Shown here: positions 12,983-22,853 of the stretch, one piece after another
How the letters are laid out: every line of letters begins with the position of its first letter
Numbering within the stretch: position 1 is the first letter of the stretch
Assembly: GCA_947449035.1 (NCBI GenBank)
Contig: CANFQC010000019.1
Coordinates: 1-42,051 of the forward strand
Source: Actinomycetota bacterium
GTDB lineage: Bacteria > Actinomycetota > Actinomycetes > S36-B12
Direction of reading: 5' to 3'
Length of the DNA stretch: 42,051 nucleotides
Program-made: the position numbers and the translations under genes
The notes under the pieces: generated by a model
What the model was told of the DNA's origin: nothing
The model's input: the letters and a program-made list of their open reading frames with translations, nothing else
The model's database searches: none

Positions 12983-14080
12983 CTACAGCCCGTGAGCTGC
13001 CACGACCTCGTCGATGCGAACCTTCTGATGGGGCTGCAGCGGCTGATCCGGCAGGGTCGAGACGCCGCCCAGGGGGTCTTCGACCCCACTGCGCACGCCG
13101 GACATCTGCTCGAGCACCGCAACACCGCAGTAGGGCACGTAGAACGGTGAGTAACCGCCCTCGTGGGTCATCATGATGCGCCCTTCGCAGAGTTCATCTG
13201 CTGCTTCCATGAGCACTGCAGTCATCTCGCGGTAACCGTGCGAGGTGACGATCATGCGACCCAGCTGGTCGTAGACACTCGCATCGAAGCCCGAGGGCAC
13301 GACGATGATTTGCGGCTTGAAGCGGCGTAGTGCAGGCACAACAACGCGCTTCATTACCTCGACGTATGCACCGTCACCGGAACCTGCCGGCAGTGGGACG
13401 TTGATGGCGAATCCTTCGCCTGCCCCCTCACCCTTCTCGGCAATGCTGCCGCTGGAGCGCGGGTAGAGATCGTCCTGGTGAATTGAGATGGTCAGCACGT
13501 TCGGATCGTCATAGAAGATCGACTGCGTGCCATTGCCGTGGTGAACGTCCCAGTCGACGACAGCAACGCGTTCTATGCCGCGATTGACGCGTGCGTGGGC
13601 GATCGCAATCGCGGCATTCGAGAAGATGCAAAAGCCCATGCCGTTCTCGCGTCGCGCATGATGACCCGGCGGACGAATCAACGCATAGGCGTTCGTGACG
13701 GTGCCGTCGAGTACGGCATCAATGGCGGCGATGGCGCCACCTGCAGAAAGCGCCGCGATCTCGTAACCGCCGTGGCCGAATGGTGACTCACCATCCCCGG
13801 CGTCACCACCCTTGACGTTCAGACTCTGCTTCTTGATGTCCTCGAGATGCTCCTTCGTATGAATGCGAAGGATTTCTTCCTCGGTCGCCGGGCGAGCCTG
13901 GATGCGCGTGAGGTACTTGGCGAGACCCGACACCTCGACCAGAGCTGCAAAGCGCACCTTGCTCTCAGGCGACTCGACATGCGTGTAGGGCTGCACGAGA
14001 CCACCGGCGACCATCAGGCCCGCGTAGGTGCCTGTGTCATGCCAGCCGTACAACTCATTCCATACGAAGCCTGTTGCCAT
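12983..14080 (-). CDS. Class II histone-deacetylase-like amidohydrolase (acetylpolyamine amidohydrolase family)
   Basis: A 365-aa enzyme of the arginase/deacetylase fold, complete by the family's motifs: RPPGHHA with tandem catalytic His (140-141), DWDVHHGNGTQ with zinc Asp178 and His180, SGFDAS with zinc Asp266, and EGGYS with the transition-state Tyr310. Bacterial members remove acetyl or other acyl groups from polyamines and small N-acyl amines. The ATG at 14080 follows GGGGAG at 5-nt spacing; a GTG two codons upstream is less likely. It is the last gene of the seven-gene transport and amide-hydrolysis operon, 20-26 nt after the dimethylformamidase-like gene, which suggests a second hydrolytic step or an alternative acyl substrate. 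Exact substrate unknown. Confidence 0.88.
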   Translation of the reverse strand: MATGFVWNELYGWHDTGTYAGLMVAGGLVQPYTHVESPESKVRFAALVEVSGLAKYLTRIQARPATEEEILRIHTKEHLEDIKKQSLNVKGGDAGDGESPFGHGGYEIAALSAGGAIAAIDAVLDGTVTNAYALIRPPGHHARRENGMGFCIFSNAAIAIAHARVNRGIERVAVVDWDVHHGNGTQSIFYDDPNVLTISIHQDDLYPRSSGSIAEKGEGAGEGFAINVPLPAGSGDGAYVEVMKRVVVPALRRFKPQIIVVPSGFDASVYDQLGRMIVTSHGYREMTAVLMEAADELCEGRIMMTHEGGYSPFYVPYCGVAVLEQMSGVRSGVEDPLGGVSTLPDQPLQPHQKVRIDEVVAAHGL

Positions 14081-14106
14081 CTTCACTCCCCGCAGTCACG
14101 CCTGGC

Positions 14107-16404
14107 TTACGTCCAGGACTTCTCTTCCTGATTCCAGGCGCCACCGGGCAATGAACCCGGCTTCTGGAAGGCATCGAGCACGTTCTTCATCACCTGTGAG
14201 ACGTTGTTCTCGAAGCCAAAGGACGGAAGCGCGCTCATCCACGCGATCGACCCCGTCGAGAACACCGCTCCATCGTTCGCTGCGGTGAAGTAAGTCATGT
14301 CAGCACGCACTGTGTCGCTCTGTGTACCCAGGGTTCCTGGGTGGTTGAACAAGATGTCTTCGACGACGCCTGCGTAGTTATCACTCCAGCTGGTCGACGA
14401 GGCGAGCAGCTTGGTATGCGGCGGAGTGCCGAGCTCGAGGTCGTAGCGCTCAGTCTCGAGACCTGCCGCACCACCGAGTGCCAGACCGAAGTCGCCGAAC
14501 ACCTCGCCTTCAACTCCATTGAAGATCCACGACACGGACTTGTGGTAACTATCGGGCATGCGCTTGTAGGGATGACACTCGTCGAAGCCCTGCGTCGTAA
14601 AGCCGACACCGGTGAGCTTCTGCGGCGGACGCGCACGGTTGCGCCAGATGCCGCCCTTTTCCGCACTGGTCTGGTGGTGGTACTCGCCGGGTTCTGCCTG
14701 CCAGGCACGCATGCCTGCCTCACCCTTGCGAACCTCCATAAACTCCGGCTCGCCTGCGCGGTACGAAACAACCCAGTAGAAGCCGTTGCCGCCCAGGTAC
14801 ATTAGGCGACCGCCGCCGGCGACGTAATCCTCGAGGTCGTTCAGGCCTTGCTCGCTCCAGTACTCAGGATGCGAGCCGGTGAGCACAACCTTGTAGTCCT
14901 TGAGCAGGTCAGGATTCGCAGCAAGATCATGGTCGGTCGCAACGTCGTAGCTGTAGTTCTTGTTCTCGAGCCATGCAATGACCGAGAGGTCACGCGGGAA
15001 CTGCCACGTCGTTCCGATTGCCGAGCTACGCCACTTCGGGCGGATGTTCAAGATGGGGCGCTTCCACGAGGTGTAGCAGACACCAGCTCCGTCAGCCCAA
15101 TGATCGTACGTTGAGCGGCCGTACTTCGGATCCTGGTAGTAGTCGGCTTCCTTCTCGGAGAGAACCGCGGCGTGCGCGAGGATGGCCTGACCCACAGGAA
15201 CGTGATGCACGATCATCTCGTTGGCGTAGGCCAGGTACGAGTTGGTCGGCATGAGATAGAGAATCGGTGCGGTTGCCTTGGTGGGGCGGATGAAGAACGT
15301 GATGTGATCCTCAACCTCGCCTATGGTGACGCGAATCGCGTAAGCACCACTGCGCGTACCCGCCGGGATCGTCCAGCTCACCGTGGCATCCCACTCGCAG
15401 TCCATGACTGCGTCGTCATGGAATGCGATTCCCCCGTATTCACCGGGTGCCACGCGCCAGTCATCGTGCTTGCCCGACCAGTTGTAGCCAGTCATAGCGC
15501 GAACCGGGCGCTGAAGTCCCTTGCCATGCAGGCCATTGGGTCCCTGGTCGCGCACGACATCGTCAATGCCGTCGGGTCCGTAGCCATCGGTGGTATCCCA
15601 GAACACCAGCGGATCCGCAATCACGCCTGCGTTGTCGGCCAGTGCCTTCATCTCATCGAGGGAGAGGGCTCGGCCGACAATGCCGCTGCGGTCGATCTTG
15701 CCGTTGTACTTGAAATCGCGGAATGTTCCACGCACCGCGGCCGAGTTGGTCGCTGCTCCCCAGTAGAACGGGCTGCTGGCAACCGTCGGAGTCACACGAA
15801 GCTTCTGCTCAACCGTCGACGTGTGATCGAAGGGTGCGACGCGACCTAGGCGACCGTTGTACGGATTGACCACGGCCTGCTGGTGCAGGACCGTCTTGCC
15901 TGACTTTGCATCAAAGCTCGCAGCAACGAAGTACCACGTGTGATGAACCAGGGGGATCTCCGATGCAATCTCATCAGAGTCCTTGCCGTTGGCGACCCAG
16001 AAGGCCAGGCGGCTGTGCGCATCAATGCCCAGTGCATAGCCGGCGTTCTCGGGAAGTGAGTAGCGACCTAGCAGTACCTGGCGGCCGTTATCAGGCATGG
16101 TCGGGAAGATGAATGAGTAGATGGTGAAGGAGTCAGTGAGGCCGAGCAGGTTGCGGGGATCCTCGACGACAACTGCATTGCCGTCATCGACGAACTGCTT
16201 GGTGACCGCGTGCGAGCCTGAGAGCGTCGAGGGAATGACTTCCTCGATGAACCCGGGACCTTCGGGATGCTCGTCGCCATGAATCAGGCGTACGACCTCG
16301 ACCTGTGCCTCGAGGGCGTTATCGACACTGACCTGCACATTGACGGTATCGCCCGGCGCGTAACTCACCTTGTCGGTGTATCCGGTGATGGAAATCGTGG
16401 CCAT
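14107..16404 (-). CDS. N,N-dimethylformamidase large (beta) subunit-like iron amidohydrolase
   Basis: A 765-aa protein close to the length of the known DMFase large subunit (about 762 aa). An N-terminal beta-rich domain (1-80), a laminin-G/concanavalin-like insert (about 90-245, LDEMKALADNAG at its end) and a ThuA-like core (380-740) are visible. Known DMFase uses iron bound by two Tyr and one Glu; candidates here are Tyr390 or Tyr393 (TNSYLAYAN), Tyr433 (GRSTYDHWADG) and Glu514 (SHPEYW), inferred from motif and offset. Expected reaction: cleavage of a small formamide or related amide to an amine and a carboxylate in the cytoplasm (no signal peptide). The matching small subunit is fused to the permease encoded 16 nt upstream. 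Confidence 0.88.
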   Translation of the reverse strand: MATISITGYTDKVSYAPGDTVNVQVSVDNALEAQVEVVRLIHGDEHPEGPGFIEEVIPSTLSGSHAVTKQFVDDGNAVVVEDPRNLLGLTDSFTIYSFIFPTMPDNGRQVLLGRYSLPENAGYALGIDAHSRLAFWVANGKDSDEIASEIPLVHHTWYFVAASFDAKSGKTVLHQQAVVNPYNGRLGRVAPFDHTSTVEQKLRVTPTVASSPFYWGAATNSAAVRGTFRDFKYNGKIDRSGIVGRALSLDEMKALADNAGVIADPLVFWDTTDGYGPDGIDDVVRDQGPNGLHGKGLQRPVRAMTGYNWSGKHDDWRVAPGEYGGIAFHDDAVMDCEWDATVSWTIPAGTRSGAYAIRVTIGEVEDHITFFIRPTKATAPILYLMPTNSYLAYANEMIVHHVPVGQAILAHAAVLSEKEADYYQDPKYGRSTYDHWADGAGVCYTSWKRPILNIRPKWRSSAIGTTWQFPRDLSVIAWLENKNYSYDVATDHDLAANPDLLKDYKVVLTGSHPEYWSEQGLNDLEDYVAGGGRLMYLGGNGFYWVVSYRAGEPEFMEVRKGEAGMRAWQAEPGEYHHQTSAEKGGIWRNRARPPQKLTGVGFTTQGFDECHPYKRMPDSYHKSVSWIFNGVEGEVFGDFGLALGGAAGLETERYDLELGTPPHTKLLASSTSWSDNYAGVVEDILFNHPGTLGTQSDTVRADMTYFTAANDGAVFSTGSIAWMSALPSFGFENNVSQVMKNVLDAFQKPGSLPGGAWNQEEKSWT

Positions 16405-16420: not shown

Positions 16421-17965
16421 TCATGATGCCTTCAAATCGTTGATACGCCGCATGAAGACGGCGTGGTAGGCCTCATCAAGCGACCCATAGGTCTTGTCGT
16501 CGACGATGCGCGGCGGAACACCGGGGAGTCCGCTGAGCGCAACGACTCGGTAACTCTGGAACGGCACTTCGGTGTACACCGCGTACTTGTCAGGAATCGG
16601 TGCCTTGCGGAAGTAGTTCAGAATGCGCTCGAGGTGGTCGGAATGCTGGCCGAGCGGCGAGCGCCGGTGCTCCTCGATGATCTCCGGAGTGATCCAGCCC
16701 CGCAGCTTCTCGCGCAGCTCGCGCTCGAAGGTGCGCCCGGCGATGAGCGACTTGTCGTGAATATCCGGAGCCTGCTGCGGAAGGTACTCGGCGTACTTCG
16801 TGGTCTGCGCAGCGCGGTGCAGGGCCTGACGACGCGTACGAATCTCGCGCATCTGCTCCTTGAGGCCGAATAAGCCGTTGCGGGTATAGAGCACGGAGAG
16901 CAGGGCTAGCGCACCGGCGAGAACGATGCGCCAGGGTCCCCAGTCGGTGAACCACTGAGTGATTCCCACGACGATCACGGTGCCGATGACTGCACCTTCG
17001 GCGCGACCGAGACCACCGATGACGATCATTGCGAGCATCAACAGCAAGAGGTCGAGGCTGAAGATCTGCAGCGAGGTGCCGCCAATGTAGGTGGAGTAGA
17101 AGGCACCAAGCGCACCGAGCACGCCGGAAGCGACCATGAACACGATCATTCGTGCGCGCTGCCAGTCGATGCCGATCGCGGAGGCGAATGACTCGTCCTC
17201 CTTTGAGGTGGAGGCCGCTTTGAGCAGCAGACCGATACGGCCTCCATTGATCCAGCGGAACACGCCGAGTGCGACGAGCAACGCGACAAACGTCGTCAAG
17301 AAGGCCAGCGTCTGGCCCAGACGGGTTGTCAGCATGTCTGACGGCACGATGCGGCCGGCACCGAAGAGCGCACCGTTGAACTTGCCGCCCAGTGCCTCGT
17401 TCTGCGTCACGAAGTTTCGGCAGAACTCCGAGAGTCCGAGAGTGAGCAGCGCGTAGTAGAGACCATCAAGGCGTCGCGCGGGAAGGCTGATCAAGAAGCC
17501 CATCGCAATGCCCAGCACCAGGCCGACGAGCAACATCAACGGCCAGGGCAGGCCGAAGGTGATCGACAGATAGGCGGCACCGTATGAACCAACACCCACC
17601 GTGGCCAACGTCGCGAACGACTGCAGGCCCGCGGTTCCCATGATCAGGGTCCACATCACGTTGATTGCTGCGTAGATGCAGATGATGCCGAACAGCGACA
17701 GGAATCGCTCCGAGCCAACTGCCGTGGGGATCGCGACGAGCAGGAAGAGACCGAACAGCCAGAACAGCGGCTTCTTGTCAGTCAGCACGACCTCGCGCTT
17801 GAGGGTCTTCGGATTGAACTGTCCGGAGAGCTTGAGAACAGATCGCTTCGAGCCGAAGTAGCGACGGCGGCGCAACACCCGATCAGGGCGGGCCGGCCAG
17901 GCCGGGCGCCAGGCGCGGCGGCCAATGAGGTGCTTGCTCTGGGGTGAGCTCGATGTCTTACTCAC
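16421..17965 (-). CDS. LivM-type ABC permease fused to a dimethylformamidase small-subunit-like C-terminal domain
   Basis: About 514 aa. Residues 1-65 are a basic cytosolic extension; 66-365 are a complete LivM permease with 8-10 helices and the EAA-like cytosolic loop (SFASAIGIDW). LivM normally ends near NGLFGLKE; here about 145 residues continue. The last 85 (WITPEIIEEHRRSPLG, LERILNYFRKAP, YAVYTEVPFQSYRV, EAYHAVFMRRI) closely resemble the small subunit of N,N-dimethylformamidase as I remember it, including the NYFR and HAVFxxRI signatures. The frame is open throughout. The GTG at 17965 lies 6 nt after GGAGG; an ATG two codons upstream abuts the GGAGG. It overlaps livH by 8 nt. The fused domain should face the cytosol, next to the transporter exit. 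Confidence 0.88.
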   Translation of the reverse strand: MSKTSSSPQSKHLIGRRAWRPAWPARPDRVLRRRRYFGSKRSVLKLSGQFNPKTLKREVVLTDKKPLFWLFGLFLLVAIPTAVGSERFLSLFGIICIYAAINVMWTLIMGTAGLQSFATLATVGVGSYGAAYLSITFGLPWPLMLLVGLVLGIAMGFLISLPARRLDGLYYALLTLGLSEFCRNFVTQNEALGGKFNGALFGAGRIVPSDMLTTRLGQTLAFLTTFVALLVALGVFRWINGGRIGLLLKAASTSKEDESFASAIGIDWQRARMIVFMVASGVLGALGAFYSTYIGGTSLQIFSLDLLLLMLAMIVIGGLGRAEGAVIGTVIVVGITQWFTDWGPWRIVLAGALALLSVLYTRNGLFGLKEQMREIRTRRQALHRAAQTTKYAEYLPQQAPDIHDKSLIAGRTFERELREKLRGWITPEIIEEHRRSPLGQHSDHLERILNYFRKAPIPDKYAVYTEVPFQSYRVVALSGLPGVPPRIVDDKTYGSLDEAYHAVFMRRINDLKAS

Positions 17966-18854
17966 GGACATCCTCCAGAAGGCCGCCGAGACCGCGGGGG
18001 CGGAAGACGAGGATCAGGACAACGATGCCGAAGAGCACGAAAGGCACCAAGGACTGGGCGAGGTAACGCGCAGTCAGCGCCTCGGCAAGGCCCACGATGG
18101 CTGCAGCGATGACCGTGCCTGGGATCGAGCCGAGGCCACCTGCCAGGGAAATGATCAGACCGACCGTCAAGGGCTGTACGCCGGAAGTTGGGCTCACGAA
18201 GAAGGTCTGAGCGAGCATCACTGAGGCGAGACCGGTCAGCGCGCCAGAGATCGCGAGCACTCGCATGCCCGTCACGCGCACAGATACGCCCACGACTGCT
18301 GCGCCGAGCGGGTTCATCATCATCGCGCGCATCTGCAGGCCGGCACGGCTGCTGCGCATCCACATGATCACTGCGGTAAGCATCAATGTTGCAATGACGA
18401 TGGCACCGAGCTGACTGTAGGAGACACCGCCCGAACCGATCTCAATTCGTCCGGTACCGAAGATCGGCGGCAGCGGCTTGCTCTGCGGGCCGAAAAAGAT
18501 GAGCCACAACTGCGTACCGATCAAGCTGATGGCAAGGGTGGCGATCAAGCCGCGCGTGCGGAAGTTTGCACGGTCTTGCAAGGGAAGGAAAGCAATCGAT
18601 CCGACGAAGAGGCCGGCAATCGCCGAACCCGCCATGCCGGAGATCAGCAATCCAATTGACATCACGGGGCCCTCGGTGATGCCCAGGTTGGTCATGGTCT
18701 GTGCGTAGAGATACGCCGCGTAACCACCGGCAGTGAAGATGAATCCCTGCGCCAGGTTCAGCATGCCGATGCTGGCCCAGGTGAACGAGATGCCGATCGC
18801 CACGAGGCCATACATGGAGGCCAGCACCGCAGCGCTGATGATGAGTTCGATCAT
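17958..18854 (-). CDS. livH: Branched-chain amino acid/amide-type ABC permease LivH
   Basis: A 298-aa membrane protein with about eight helices: the LivH start ASMYGLVAIGISFTWASIGMLNLAQG, then GAAVVGVSVRVTGMRVLAISGAL (cytosolic coupling loop) and GGLGSIPGTVIAAAIVGLAEA. It forms the translocation channel with the LivM-type permease. It overlaps livF by one base (TGATG) and the fused permease gene by 8 nt. HAAT transporters of this type carry branched amino acids, urea, short amides and other small polar compounds, so the name gives no substrate. Confidence 0.92.
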   Translation of the reverse strand: MIELIISAAVLASMYGLVAIGISFTWASIGMLNLAQGFIFTAGGYAAYLYAQTMTNLGITEGPVMSIGLLISGMAGSAIAGLFVGSIAFLPLQDRANFRTRGLIATLAISLIGTQLWLIFFGPQSKPLPPIFGTGRIEIGSGGVSYSQLGAIVIATLMLTAVIMWMRSSRAGLQMRAMMMNPLGAAVVGVSVRVTGMRVLAISGALTGLASVMLAQTFFVSPTSGVQPLTVGLIISLAGGLGSIPGTVIAAAIVGLAEALTARYLAQSLVPFVLFGIVVLILVFRPRGLGGLLEDVRE

Positions 18855-19576
18855 CAGTGCATCCCTCCAGCTGACGGAGGGACATCGCCAAGTGCTTCGC
18901 CGACGTCGAGCTTGATCTCGCCAGCGTGCATGCCGAGCATGCGGTCGACGCGGCCTTCGAGCAGTGGAAGGTTCTGCTCGGCGATGATCATGGCTCCTTC
19001 GCCGATGTCGATCTCGCAGAGAGCAGCGACCAGGCCCATCGAGATCTTTGGTGCGAGCCCGAGTGACGGCTCGTCGACCAAATAGAGCTTGGAGTCCGAC
19101 ATAAGCGCGCGTCCGACCGAGACCATGCGGCGCTCGCCACCGGAGAGAGTGCCGGCTGTCTGCTTGAGGAGCTTGCCCAGCGGCGGGAAGACATTGATCA
19201 CGCTGTCGCGACGGCGCTTACGTGATCGCCACGAAGCGCTGGTGTATGCGCCGCTGTCGAGGTTGTCCTTGACCGACAGGCCAGGGAAGATCGCATCGCC
19301 TTGCGGCGCGAGTGCAATACCGCTGCGCACGATGCCCGGGGTCTTGCGTCCGACACCATGGGTACGGCGGCCGCCGATCTCCTTGCCCTCGAAAACGATC
19401 GAGCCGTCCTGCCAGCCGGTCAGACCCACGATGGTGCTGAGCAAGGTGGTCTTGCCATGACCATTGAGCCCGACCAGACCCAGGCGCTCACCCGGTTCGA
19501 CGCTGAGGTCGAGGTCGTGGAGAACTCGCACCGGGCCGTATCCGGCCGAGATACCAGTCAGCTTGAGAATCGACAT
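18854..19576 (-). CDS. livF: HAAT-type ABC transporter ATPase LivF
   Basis: A 240-aa nucleotide-binding subunit: Walker A GLNGHGKTT (His where Ala or Ser is common), Q-loop in IALAPQGDAIF, signature TLSGGERRMVSVGRAL, Walker B LYLVDEPSLGLAP and an H-loop replaced by IIAEQNLPL, which is normal for LivF (Gln position). It hydrolyses ATP for LivH and the LivM fusion. One-base overlaps with livG and livH show tight coupling. Confidence 0.92.
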   Translation of the reverse strand: MSILKLTGISAGYGPVRVLHDLDLSVEPGERLGLVGLNGHGKTTLLSTIVGLTGWQDGSIVFEGKEIGGRRTHGVGRKTPGIVRSGIALAPQGDAIFPGLSVKDNLDSGAYTSASWRSRKRRRDSVINVFPPLGKLLKQTAGTLSGGERRMVSVGRALMSDSKLYLVDEPSLGLAPKISMGLVAALCEIDIGEGAMIIAEQNLPLLEGRVDRMLGMHAGEIKLDVGEALGDVPPSAGGMH

Positions 19577-20322
19577 CAGCTGATCACCAGGTTCCCCTCG
19601 AGATCAGCGTTGATCGGAACATCGAAGTAAGCAGCACGAACCTCGGGAGACGTGAAGACCGTCTCAGGCGGTCCCTCGGCGATGATGTGGCCGACGTCGA
19701 GTACGAGAACCTTCGAGGCGACCATGGCGAGTAGTTCGAGGCGGTGCTCGATCAACAGCACGGCGACGCCGTATTCCTGCGAGAGCTTGCGCACGACGAG
19801 ATCGATTTCATCGATCTCCGATCCAGTGAGGCCCGAAGCAGGCTCGTCGAGCAGGACGATCTGAGGGTCGCGAAGGAGAAGGCAAGCCAACATCAACTTG
19901 CGACGCTCAAGGGTTTCGAGAAGTGCCGTGGGCGCATCCAACGGAGTGCGCATGCGCACGAATTCCGCGGCCCATTCGACAGTAAGCCGGGCGGGATAGG
20001 GCTTGTAGGCCTTGCGTGCGGCCTTAAGAGTTTCAGCAACGGTGAGTGTTGCCGGAACGATCGGGCGCTGATAGCTGCGCACCAGACCGAGCTCGACGCG
20101 CTTGCGCATCGGGAGCTTGCGAATCGACGTGCCATTCAAGAGCACGTCACCGCCGTGATTGAGCTGGCGGCCGGAGAGTACTTCGAAAAGGCTGGTCTTG
20201 CCGGCCCCATTGGGGCCGGCAAGACCGACAACCTCTGCCTTGCTCACATCAAGTGACACGCCTTCGAGAATTCGACGTCCGCCTAGTTCAAGCGTGATGT
20301 CGGTGCAGGAAAGAAGTGTCAT
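19576..20322 (-). CDS. livG: HAAT-type ABC transporter ATPase LivG with a degenerate signature motif
   Basis: A 248-aa ATPase starting at the ATG at 20320-20322 (MTLLSCTDITLELGG). Walker A is GPNGAGKTS, Walker B IVLLDEPASGL, and the H-loop is LLIEHRLEL. The usual LSxGQ-type signature ahead of Walker B is replaced by LLETLERRKLMLAC. In a LivF/LivG heterodimer this leaves one composite ATP site that may be weak or inactive. The 14-nt gap to the binding-protein gene puts it second in the operon. The reading was checked on the minus strand and shows no frame disruption. Confidence 0.88.
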   Translation of the reverse strand: MTLLSCTDITLELGGRRILEGVSLDVSKAEVVGLAGPNGAGKTSLFEVLSGRQLNHGGDVLLNGTSIRKLPMRKRVELGLVRSYQRPIVPATLTVAETLKAARKAYKPYPARLTVEWAAEFVRMRTPLDAPTALLETLERRKLMLACLLLRDPQIVLLDEPASGLTGSEIDEIDLVVRKLSQEYGVAVLLIEHRLELLAMVASKVLVLDVGHIIAEGPPETVFTSPEVRAAYFDVPINADLEGNLVIS

Positions 20323-20335
20323 GTGAAGTGTTGTC

Positions 20336-21661
20336 CTACTTCTGCCAGGGCTGCAGCTGGAAGGGTGCCTCAGCGTCATCAGCGGGAGCGATAACGGTGT
20401 GCTTACCGTTCTGCACCTGGTAGAAGTAGTGAGTCACGCCCTCTGCTGCAGAGCCGGCAACATCCGGGTAGATGTTGACTGCGCCCTTCGAGAAGTCGAG
20501 GTGACCGGTGACGCCATCAGTCGGGTTCGCGGCGATGAACTCATTCACTGCCTTGAAATCAGACGGATCGACGTTCTTCCAGGCGTTTGCCAGGACGTTG
20601 ACCATGTCGTAGCACCAGGCCGGGTACACGAAGCCCATCGTGGTGTCATCGACGTTGTAAGCAGCCTGGTACGCGGCACGGAATGCCTTGTCCTCCGGCG
20701 AGGTGTTGCCCGTACCGATGACGGTGCCCCACACGTAACCCTCGGCTGCCGGTCCTGCGATCTGCAGGTACTCGGGCTGCGACGGTCCGTACTGGAGGTA
20801 CACCAGTGCGTTCGGAACCGGGTCAGCGGCGAACTGCTGCGAGAACGAGGCGAGCTCGGCACCGATCCAGTGATCGACCACGATGACACCAGGGTTCGAT
20901 GCCTTCAGCTTCGAGATGACCGGGGCCCAGTCCTTGGTGCCGGCGGTGATATCGATGACGTCACCCAGGGTCCACTTTCCATTGGACGCCTTGATGGCCT
21001 CGATAAGCGCGTCAGCGATGTTCTTGTTGTATGCCGTGTCACCGCGAACGATGTCGACCTTGTTGTTGGTCGGCTTCCAGGTACCGGCATCAGCCAGCTG
21101 GGTGAGGAACACCGGAAGGCCGGCACCGTAGAAGGTCTCGGCGGGATCGGTGAAGTAGTTGCCGTACTTCGCCGGATCAGCCTCGCGCATCTTCTGTGCG
21201 TCGATGTTGGTGTCGCCGCTCATGTACGGAGCGCCGTATGCGGCAGCTGCGTCAAGTGCGGGCGGCGGGATGATGACGAAGGGGCTGACGATCGCGCTCA
21301 CCTTGTCGCCGGTCAGCTTCTGGAAGCCGGCGGTGATGCCCTCGGGGGACAGGATGTCGATGTCGGTGACATCGAGTGCCAGCGGACGACCGTTGACGCC
21401 GCCTGCGGCGTTCACCTGGTCGACAGCGAGCTGTGCGCCATTCCAGCAGTCCTTGTGGTCGGCAATACCTGCCGGGCCGGACTGGGCAATCGCAGCGCCG
21501 ATGTTGATCGGCTCGCCGCTGGCGGATGCTGCTGCCGAGGCGGCGGCAGAGCCAGCGGGCGCTGCGGATGACGAGGACGAACTAGAGCTGCCACCACACG
21601 CCGCAAGAAGCATTGCGGTCGTGGCGATGACACCTGCTGATGCAATCAGACGACGGTTCAC
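20336..21661 (-). CDS. HAAT-family periplasmic-type substrate-binding lipoprotein (LivK-like)
   Basis: A 441-aa protein with a lipoprotein signal: basic start (NRRLIAS), hydrophobic core and lipobox LLAAC, so it is anchored outside the membrane. A Ser/Ala-rich linker precedes the type I periplasmic-binding fold (GEPINIGAAIAQSGP, NAAGGVNGRPLAL, DNTNID-like core). It delivers substrate to LivH and the LivM fusion. The GTG at 21661 follows GGAGG at 6 nt; the 114 upstream codons in frame are not part of the protein. First gene of the operon. The ligand cannot be read from the sequence; context suggests a small amide or N-acyl amine. Confidence 0.9.
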   Translation of the reverse strand: MNRRLIASAGVIATTAMLLAACGGSSSSSSSSAAPAGSAAASAAASASGEPINIGAAIAQSGPAGIADHKDCWNGAQLAVDQVNAAGGVNGRPLALDVTDIDILSPEGITAGFQKLTGDKVSAIVSPFVIIPPPALDAAAAYGAPYMSGDTNIDAQKMREADPAKYGNYFTDPAETFYGAGLPVFLTQLADAGTWKPTNNKVDIVRGDTAYNKNIADALIEAIKASNGKWTLGDVIDITAGTKDWAPVISKLKASNPGVIVVDHWIGAELASFSQQFAADPVPNALVYLQYGPSQPEYLQIAGPAAEGYVWGTVIGTGNTSPEDKAFRAAYQAAYNVDDTTMGFVYPAWCYDMVNVLANAWKNVDPSDFKAVNEFIAANPTDGVTGHLDFSKGAVNIYPDVAGSAAEGVTHYFYQVQNGKHTVIAPADDAEAPFQLQPWQK

Positions 21662-21753: not shown

Positions 21754-21848
21754 CATATTGGAGAGATTTTGATTTCTGTTCGGTTACGAATGATTGATTC
21801 CAGGTGAAAAACCTGCGCCTGTCTCCCAGCCGCTGCCACGATGCGCGT

Positions 21849-22853
21849 GTGAGCACAGTGAGCGTTACCGAGGCCATGAGCACTGTTGCGGCCGTGGGTG
21901 CGATCACCTCTGACTCCGGCAGCGTCACCGACCGGGCATCCGCCATCCTCGAGGAACTGCGCAAGATCGTTCCTTTCGAAGCGGCCGAAATCGTCTCTAT
22001 CAACCCGATTACCCAGGAATCGGTACAAATCGCATCAGAGGGCTACAGCCAACGCGTTCTTGACGACCTCCATAGCCCTCAGTTCCACGACATCATGCGG
22101 GCGCTCAACCTGCCTGAGACGGGGAAGCCGATTCGCATGCGCGACCTTCCCGGTGACCCTCTCGACAACTGGGCCGTCGCCGACGTGCTCTACCCGGCGG
22201 GCTACGCCGAGGGCATGACCATGTGCCTTCGCACGCCAGACGGACGCTTCACAGGAGTCATCAACCTCTCAACTCTGAGTACCGAGCATCCGAGTGACAT
22301 CGCCCGTGATGCGATCGCTCATTTGTGCGCGACTCTTGGCAACCTCGTTGACCCCATGCAGTCCGGTAAGTGGATTTCGATGCTGCTCGGTGCGGGAAGC
22401 ATGGCCATCGGCTTGGATTCCGCCGGTGAAACCGTGAGCATCCCCGGCCTGGCCGGCCACAAGTTGCTGCAAAGCGGCACCGATCTCGTGCAGGTCGCGC
22501 AAAAGTCAGCAGTGCATAACTCCTGGGGCTCTTTCGTGTGGCCCGACGAGGAGGACTGGTTCAGGGTGCGCGTAGTGCCTTGCAAGGGCGAGCAGCCGAT
22601 CAGCACCGTGATCAGTCTCGACGCGATCGACATCGGACCGCTCACCCGGCGCGAGCTTGAGGTACTCACCCTTGCCGCAGAAGGCCTCTCGAATGGCGAG
22701 ATCAGCGAGGCACTCGTGATCAGTAGCCGTACCGTCACCACGCACGTCGAGCACATTCTCGCCAAGCTCAATGCACCCAACCGTGCAGCGGCTGCCTCGT
22801 ACGCACTTCGCGAGGGCTACATCCTCGGCAAGGTCGATCGCTACGACCATTAG
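21849..22853 (+). CDS. LuxR-family transcriptional regulator with N-terminal GAF-like domain
   Basis: About 334 aa. Residues roughly 10-190 look like a GAF-type sensor (ASAILEELRKIVPFEAAEI, PAGYAEGMTMCLRTPDGRFTGVINL), and the last 65 form a LuxR helix-turn-helix (LTRRELEVLTLAAEGLSNGE, ISSRTVTTHVEHILAKLN). It is divergent from the transporter operon, so it is the natural candidate for its regulator, perhaps ligand-responsive through the GAF domain. The start is uncertain: GTG at 21849 chosen, GTG at 21804 or ATG at 21876 are also open and none has a strong ribosome site. No receiver domain is visible, so it is not a response regulator. Confidence 0.8.
   Translation: MSTVSVTEAMSTVAAVGAITSDSGSVTDRASAILEELRKIVPFEAAEIVSINPITQESVQIASEGYSQRVLDDLHSPQFHDIMRALNLPETGKPIRMRDLPGDPLDNWAVADVLYPAGYAEGMTMCLRTPDGRFTGVINLSTLSTEHPSDIARDAIAHLCATLGNLVDPMQSGKWISMLLGAGSMAIGLDSAGETVSIPGLAGHKLLQSGTDLVQVAQKSAVHNSWGSFVWPDEEDWFRVRVVPCKGEQPISTVISLDAIDIGPLTRRELEVLTLAAEGLSNGEISEALVISSRTVTTHVEHILAKLNAPNRAAAASYALREGYILGKVDRYDH

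Follow-up and report, generated by a model that had tools for sequence, protein, structure and literature searches.

The window, the whole 42,051-nucleotide stretch of DNA from a freshwater actinobacterium analyzed here, contains a minus-strand operon that encodes an ABC importer of the branched-chain amino acid type and an enzyme of the dimethylformamidase (DMFase) type. The substrate-binding lipoprotein (20336..21661; Peripla_BP_6, E 4e-28), recognized also by its N-terminal sequence, likely starts at the GTG at 21661, just ahead of the lipobox LLAACG; a longer mechanical reading frame that reaches 22003 is unlikely. It is followed by frames for a LivG-type ATPase (19576..20379) and a LivF-type ATPase (18854..19576), both in a gene order kept in relatives, and by an unfused LivH-type permease of 298 amino acids (17958..18854; BPD_transp_2, E 1e-28), a neighbor kept in complete relatives. 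The next gene joins a LivM-type permease to a DMFase small subunit (16421-17971), and the DMFase-type large, catalytic subunit of 765 amino acids comes after it (14107..16404; DMFA2_C, E 4e-94; 6lvb_A, E 1e-181). The fused BPD_transp_2 permease thus shares its operon with LivH, LivF, LivG, and a binding protein, and the order binding protein-LivG-LivF-LivH-LivM::small-large recurs in all complete loci examined, in Actinomycetota and Proteobacteria alike.

Two further genes flank this set. A LuxR-type regulator (21804..22853, plus strand; GerE, E 2e-19) is transcribed divergently, and its position is kept in relatives. It matches the LuxR gene beside dmfA1 on pAMI2 only distantly (26% over 88% of the query); the Paracoccus aminophilus dmf genes are activated by the LuxR-type protein DmfR. 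Downstream of the large subunit lies a histone-deacetylase-family amidohydrolase (12983..14086, minus strand; Hist_deacetyl, E 1.5e-91), found at the same place in at least eight actinobacterial loci (L021, L023, L025, L027, L028, L032, L034, and L041). It is probably an operon member in the actinobacterial lineage only, and this putative enzyme may act on the same amide or a follow-on amide. One of these loci, L032, has a second copy of the amidohydrolase upstream.

A LivM permease that continues into a DMFase small subunit

The fused gene is a minus-strand frame of 516 codons that runs from an ATG at 17971 to a stop codon at 16421-16423, with no internal stops. The preliminary description had proposed an uninterrupted LivM and small-subunit frame without naming the strand; the frame bears this out, and the large-subunit gene does begin, as had been stated, 16 nt beyond the fusion stop, with an ATG at 16404. 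Three parts can be told apart on the minus strand: the permease core (amino acids 1-362; 16886..17971), defined by BPD_transp_2 and the modelled fold; a connector (amino acids 363-405; 16757..16885), defined by alignment and model secondary structure; and the small-subunit domain (amino acids 406-516 and the stop codon; 16421..16756), defined by 6lvb_B, Foldseek, and VIA-align. Within the core, BPD_transp_2 covers amino acids 95-357 (Pfam, E 1.1e-21), and the N terminus (amino acids 1-67) is a basic extension; the NCBIfam LivM and UrtC models score far under their cutoffs on the fused permease. No Pfam or NCBIfam model matches the tail significantly. In a phmmer search of the PDB, the tail has a single match, to 6lvb_B, the small subunit of the Paracoccus DMFase (E 3.2e-14, over residues 61-148 of the tail).

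The structure of the fused protein predicted from an alignment of 21 relatives (mean pLDDT 70.6, pTM 0.57) shows ten membrane helices, followed by a helix at 367-392 and by a domain at 404-515 that is modelled better. The top Foldseek matches of the model are 6lvv_B and 6lvb_B, with a TM score of ∼0.78 of the target. In VIA-align, model residues 372-516 superpose on residues 7-130 of 6lvv_B (Z 14.8, rmsd 2.4 Å, 119 of 125 residues), and residues 52-372 match HmuU, BtuC, and similar importer permeases (Z 10-14; ∼13-14 for the HmuU/BtuC type). Sequence match and predicted fold together uphold the proposed identity of the tail. Its extent had been underestimated: only the last 85 residues had been assigned to the small subunit, and the superposition takes in essentially the whole subunit of 132 residues. 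Both lines of evidence indicate that the tail is essentially an entire DMFase small subunit, and that one polypeptide combines a transporter with part of an enzyme.

The transition between the two parts is tight. In the model, the small-subunit part starts ∼10 residues or less past the last membrane helix, and the connector forms a basic helix (367-392) directly after that helix, partly aligned by VIA-align with the beginning of the DMFase small subunit. This helix lacks a clear amphipathic character: 17% of shuffles reach its hydrophobic moment. Five connector residues (Q373, R378, R386, A387, and T390) are invariant in the alignment across two phyla. There are 19 lysines and arginines ahead of the first helix, 8 within the connector, and 2 in all outside loops combined; because positive charges lie on the inner segments, both ends of the fused protein are predicted to be cytosolic (N-in/C-in).

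The neighboring catalytic subunit

The window's large subunit retains equivalents of Y399, Y440, E521, H519, N547, and F693. In the DMFase structure, Y399, Y440, and E521 are the iron ligands, H519 is essential, and N547 and F693 line the pocket (PMC7686228). The same study describes an α2-β2 enzyme in which the N-terminal helix of the small subunit is wedged between large subunits; the entrance to the active site runs between large and small subunits, which build it together, and the large subunit made without the small one is inactive (PMC7686228). A related acylase of the same large-subunit family has been deposited in the PDB with one kind of chain only, suggesting that not every family member may need the small subunit. 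On plasmid pMDW2 of Aminobacter (L048 14946-17267), a second large subunit follows right behind the first and has alanine in place of the iron ligand E521; it may be a partner subunit that has lost catalytic activity.

In each of eight genomes (G028, G072, G143, G150, G461, G463, G465, and G702), there is a single large subunit, and the only small-subunit domain detected is that of the fusion, in a count that a free small subunit of very divergent sequence could have escaped. Since no small subunit other than the fused tail was found there beside the single large subunit, and since the published large subunit is inactive alone, anchoring of the enzyme at the membrane through the tail, as had been suggested for this locus, is strongly indicated; we infer it from gene content and from the characterized enzyme. 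The window's own genome (L002, C37) also carries a second DMFase pair, which has a free small subunit and adjoins a GcvT-family (aminomethyltransferase-like) gene.

The same evidence bears on a regulatory role, in which the tail would couple the state of the enzyme to transport, with an importer that runs only while the enzyme is docked, or would throttle the importer, as accessory domains do in MetNI or ModBC; the enzyme may be located there, but the fusion would serve control and not hand-off. A review notes that small domains fused to transporters often have a regulatory role (PMC10710835), and the conservation of the five connector residues exceeds what a passive spacer would need. Yet the tail is a complete subunit, closely similar to a part of a known enzyme, with its large subunit encoded next, and several genomes have no other small subunit that we could find, all of which would be superfluous for a pure sensor. 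We consider this explanation improbable on its own; it is compatible with docking, and both could hold.

Recurrence of the fusion in two phyla

The search for the same fusion in other genomes, which the preliminary description had called for, recovered it in independent assemblies from two phyla, including many soil and water Proteobacteria (Rhizobiales- and Burkholderiales-type), and on finished plasmids. In the window's order, 14 genomes contain the fusion with a tail match that extends to the natural end, and two more copies are cut by contig ends. Among sampled genomes, 16 of 397 in the order of Bradyrhizobium and 7 of 300 in the order of Ideonella have it. Among the relatives are assemblies of freshwater actinobacteria, one of them labelled Nanopelagicales, as well as Rhodocyclaceae, Ideonella, Rhodopseudomonas, Hoeflea alexandrii, Bradyrhizobium aeschynomenes, and a Tepidamorphus; the finished plasmids are those of Aminobacter and Agrobacterium, on which the fusion is annotated merely as a branched-chain amino acid permease. 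In a wider sample of 296 Actinomycetota genomes, no fused copy was found except in the window's own genome. Viral contigs yielded no relative of the tail, and a phage collection gave weak matches to the permease core only.

As the window belongs to an 87-contig assembly, its fused frame could in principle be an assembly or frameshift artifact. However, the same open frame occurs in the independently assembled relatives and on the finished Aminobacter and Agrobacterium plasmids. Because the fusion recurs in this way, we regard the artifact reading as refuted and give it practically no weight. Against the nearest relative, dN/dS is <0.04 for the core, the connector, and the small domain (0.006-0.04 for tail and connector), indicating that tail and connector are under purifying selection. 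By its distribution and its place in the trees, the fusion is a widespread and old arrangement.

Some candidates did not hold up. Apparent extra fusions in L045, L060, L088, and L089 are long frames in which the part ahead of a normal small-subunit start is read outside any gene. A putative archaeal fusion in Halalkalicoccus, annotated as an "inner-membrane translocator" (L047 8779-9321), is actually a free small subunit of 180 amino acids, the name having apparently been carried over from fused proteins. A locus that seemed to have no large subunit (L091) was also rejected as such, for the wider stretch has one further downstream, beyond an extra 388-amino-acid frame. In L100 (7897-9063), the fused permease and the large subunit are separated by a frame of 388 amino acids that is weakly porin-like. 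Freshwater-actinobacterial genes of this operon also lie on L041 (large subunit 78% and PPI 81% to the window), a contig titled Bifidobacterium breve that is probably mislabelled or contaminated.

Origin of the fusion and free small subunits

On a phylogenetic tree, the fused tails fall into one clade (support 98/97) in which a few free small subunits are nested, and the large-subunit partners of the fused tails also form one clade (support 100/99). The DMFases of P. aminophilus pAMI2 and Methylobacterium DM1 lie outside the fused clades. The simplest reading of these trees is that one fusion event spread over two phyla and was followed by duplication or release, with the number of releases uncertain, as the forks near the nested free copies are partly weak.

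Three of the nested free small subunits are encoded between a fused permease and a single large subunit (L054 9231-9848, L074 1091-1549, and L102 7605-8015), and others, e.g., that of L051, lie away from a fused permease. The nesting of free small subunits among fused tails suggests that a fused-type tail is apparently able to serve as an ordinary subunit, and the relatives in which such a free copy stands between the fusion and the large-subunit gene suggest that anchoring may not be all-or-none. In one operon (L101 2782-9596), a fused permease and its large subunit are followed by a free small subunit and a second large subunit.

In a neutral alternative, the stop codon between neighboring genes would have been lost, the enzyme would be tethered or cut free with no functional benefit, and the fusion would be kept as both parts are needed. 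The parts were plausibly operon neighbors already, and small subunits of the fused type apparently became free proteins again on several occasions. On the other hand, the fusion has been retained in two phyla at ∼50% identity, its connector is conserved, and a single clade spans both phyla. We therefore consider a purely neutral fusion very unlikely.

An enzyme that may assemble on its importer

The reading that we favor, with a probability of roughly 0.72, is that importer and enzyme share a protein, that the LivM tail is the docking site of the large subunit, and that the imported amide is cut at the membrane. The cytosolic end of LivM would supply the small subunit that a DMFase-type iron amidohydrolase requires. 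The large subunit, made separately, would dock on this tail, and the active enzyme would thus be assembled on the importer at the membrane. There, the amide would be cut on entry to an acid and an amine, and a small uncharged amide would be trapped as charged products that do not leak back out. Docking on the tail and the membrane location of the enzyme are proposed from homology to the known DMFase and from the genomes in which no other small subunit was found. A direct hand-off of substrate, as originally suggested, is plausible and is compatible with an active-site entrance built by two subunits; a kinetic benefit of proximity is a more tentative extension.

The stoichiometry raises a question, since one importer has one LivM: a DMFase dimer must either join two importers or take up a free small subunit. 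In a more elaborate version of the proposal, the dimer would bridge two importers through their LivM tails, transport and hydrolysis would be mutually controlled, and the amide would pass from the permease exit into the entrance formed by the tail. We hold such a bridge to be doubtful. Some points weigh against the docking proposal itself: it is not obvious how the known DMFase architecture, with its wedged helix, would fit beside the importer ATPases, the related acylase has one kind of chain only, and some relatives retain a free small subunit. A composite prediction of tail and large subunit, obtained by reading through the single intervening stop codon in L027, has low confidence (pTM 0.62), too low to define an interface.

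Candidate substrates

An amide is the presumed transported compound because a DMFase-type enzyme is encoded next door; N-alkyl amides are a more tentative choice. In B. aeschynomenes (L040 11878-13643), the operon is followed by a homologue of the methylamine dehydrogenase heavy chain (mauB-like) and by a MauE-like gene; Rhodopseudomonas B29 (L037 3714-5087) likewise has a MauE-like gene directly after the fused operon. These mau-like genes point to conversion of an N-methyl amide to methylamine in these two loci. Dimethylformamide itself, which DMFase hydrolyzes to formate and dimethylamine, must not be assumed as the substrate, since a close homologue, the DMFase-like amidase AceAB, does not act on it, according to a review.

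Relation to known systems and implications

The closest characterized enzyme, DmfA1/DmfA2 of Paracoccus (PDB 6lvb), shares with the window both subunits, the catalytic residues, the small-large gene order, and a nearby LuxR-type regulator, but its small subunit is a free protein of 132 amino acids with no transporter annotated beside it on pAMI2, whereas here it is the C terminus of a permease. AceAB, the acetamiprid amidase of Pigmentiphaga, is likewise a two-subunit DMFase-like amidase; it has been described with two separate subunits, and it illustrates that the substrate can differ from dimethylformamide within the family. LivHMGF-type importers of branched-chain amino acids, urea, and amides have the same five-gene set and a LivM core with ten predicted helices, but here LivM has in addition a C-terminal enzyme subunit of ∼145 residues. 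In Rhodococcus USK13 (L052 8843-9397), an AmiS/UreI family transporter comes after a DMFase pair of the free type, another pairing of a DMFase with a transporter.

Transporter-enzyme fusions as such are already known. Those of SulP with carbonic anhydrase, which have been reported (PMC6458275), also place a transporter and an enzyme for the transported compound in one polypeptide; in our case, it is the operon that suggests that the enzyme acts on what is transported. They differ in that a secondary carrier is fused to a catalytic domain, whereas here an ABC importer carries a noncatalytic subunit that would recruit the catalytic chain. LacS-EIIA, the C2 domain of MetNI, and CBS domains are further cases of a cytosolic domain joined to a transporter (PMC10710835), but these are regulatory, unlike the window's tail, an enzyme subunit encoded adjoining its catalytic partner. 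In the open-licence literature, we found no paper that joins DMFase with a permease or a fusion, and none of the annotations that we found mentions the fusion. A DMFase small subunit on an ABC permease thus seems, tentatively, to be undescribed.

Coupling of an importer to the first catabolic enzyme has often been proposed but seldom within a single gene. An ABC permease that bears a subunit indispensable to a known enzyme would make transporter-enzyme coupling directly testable. The fusion also marks a widespread branch of DMFases, which is relevant to how amides are degraded in soils and fresh waters.
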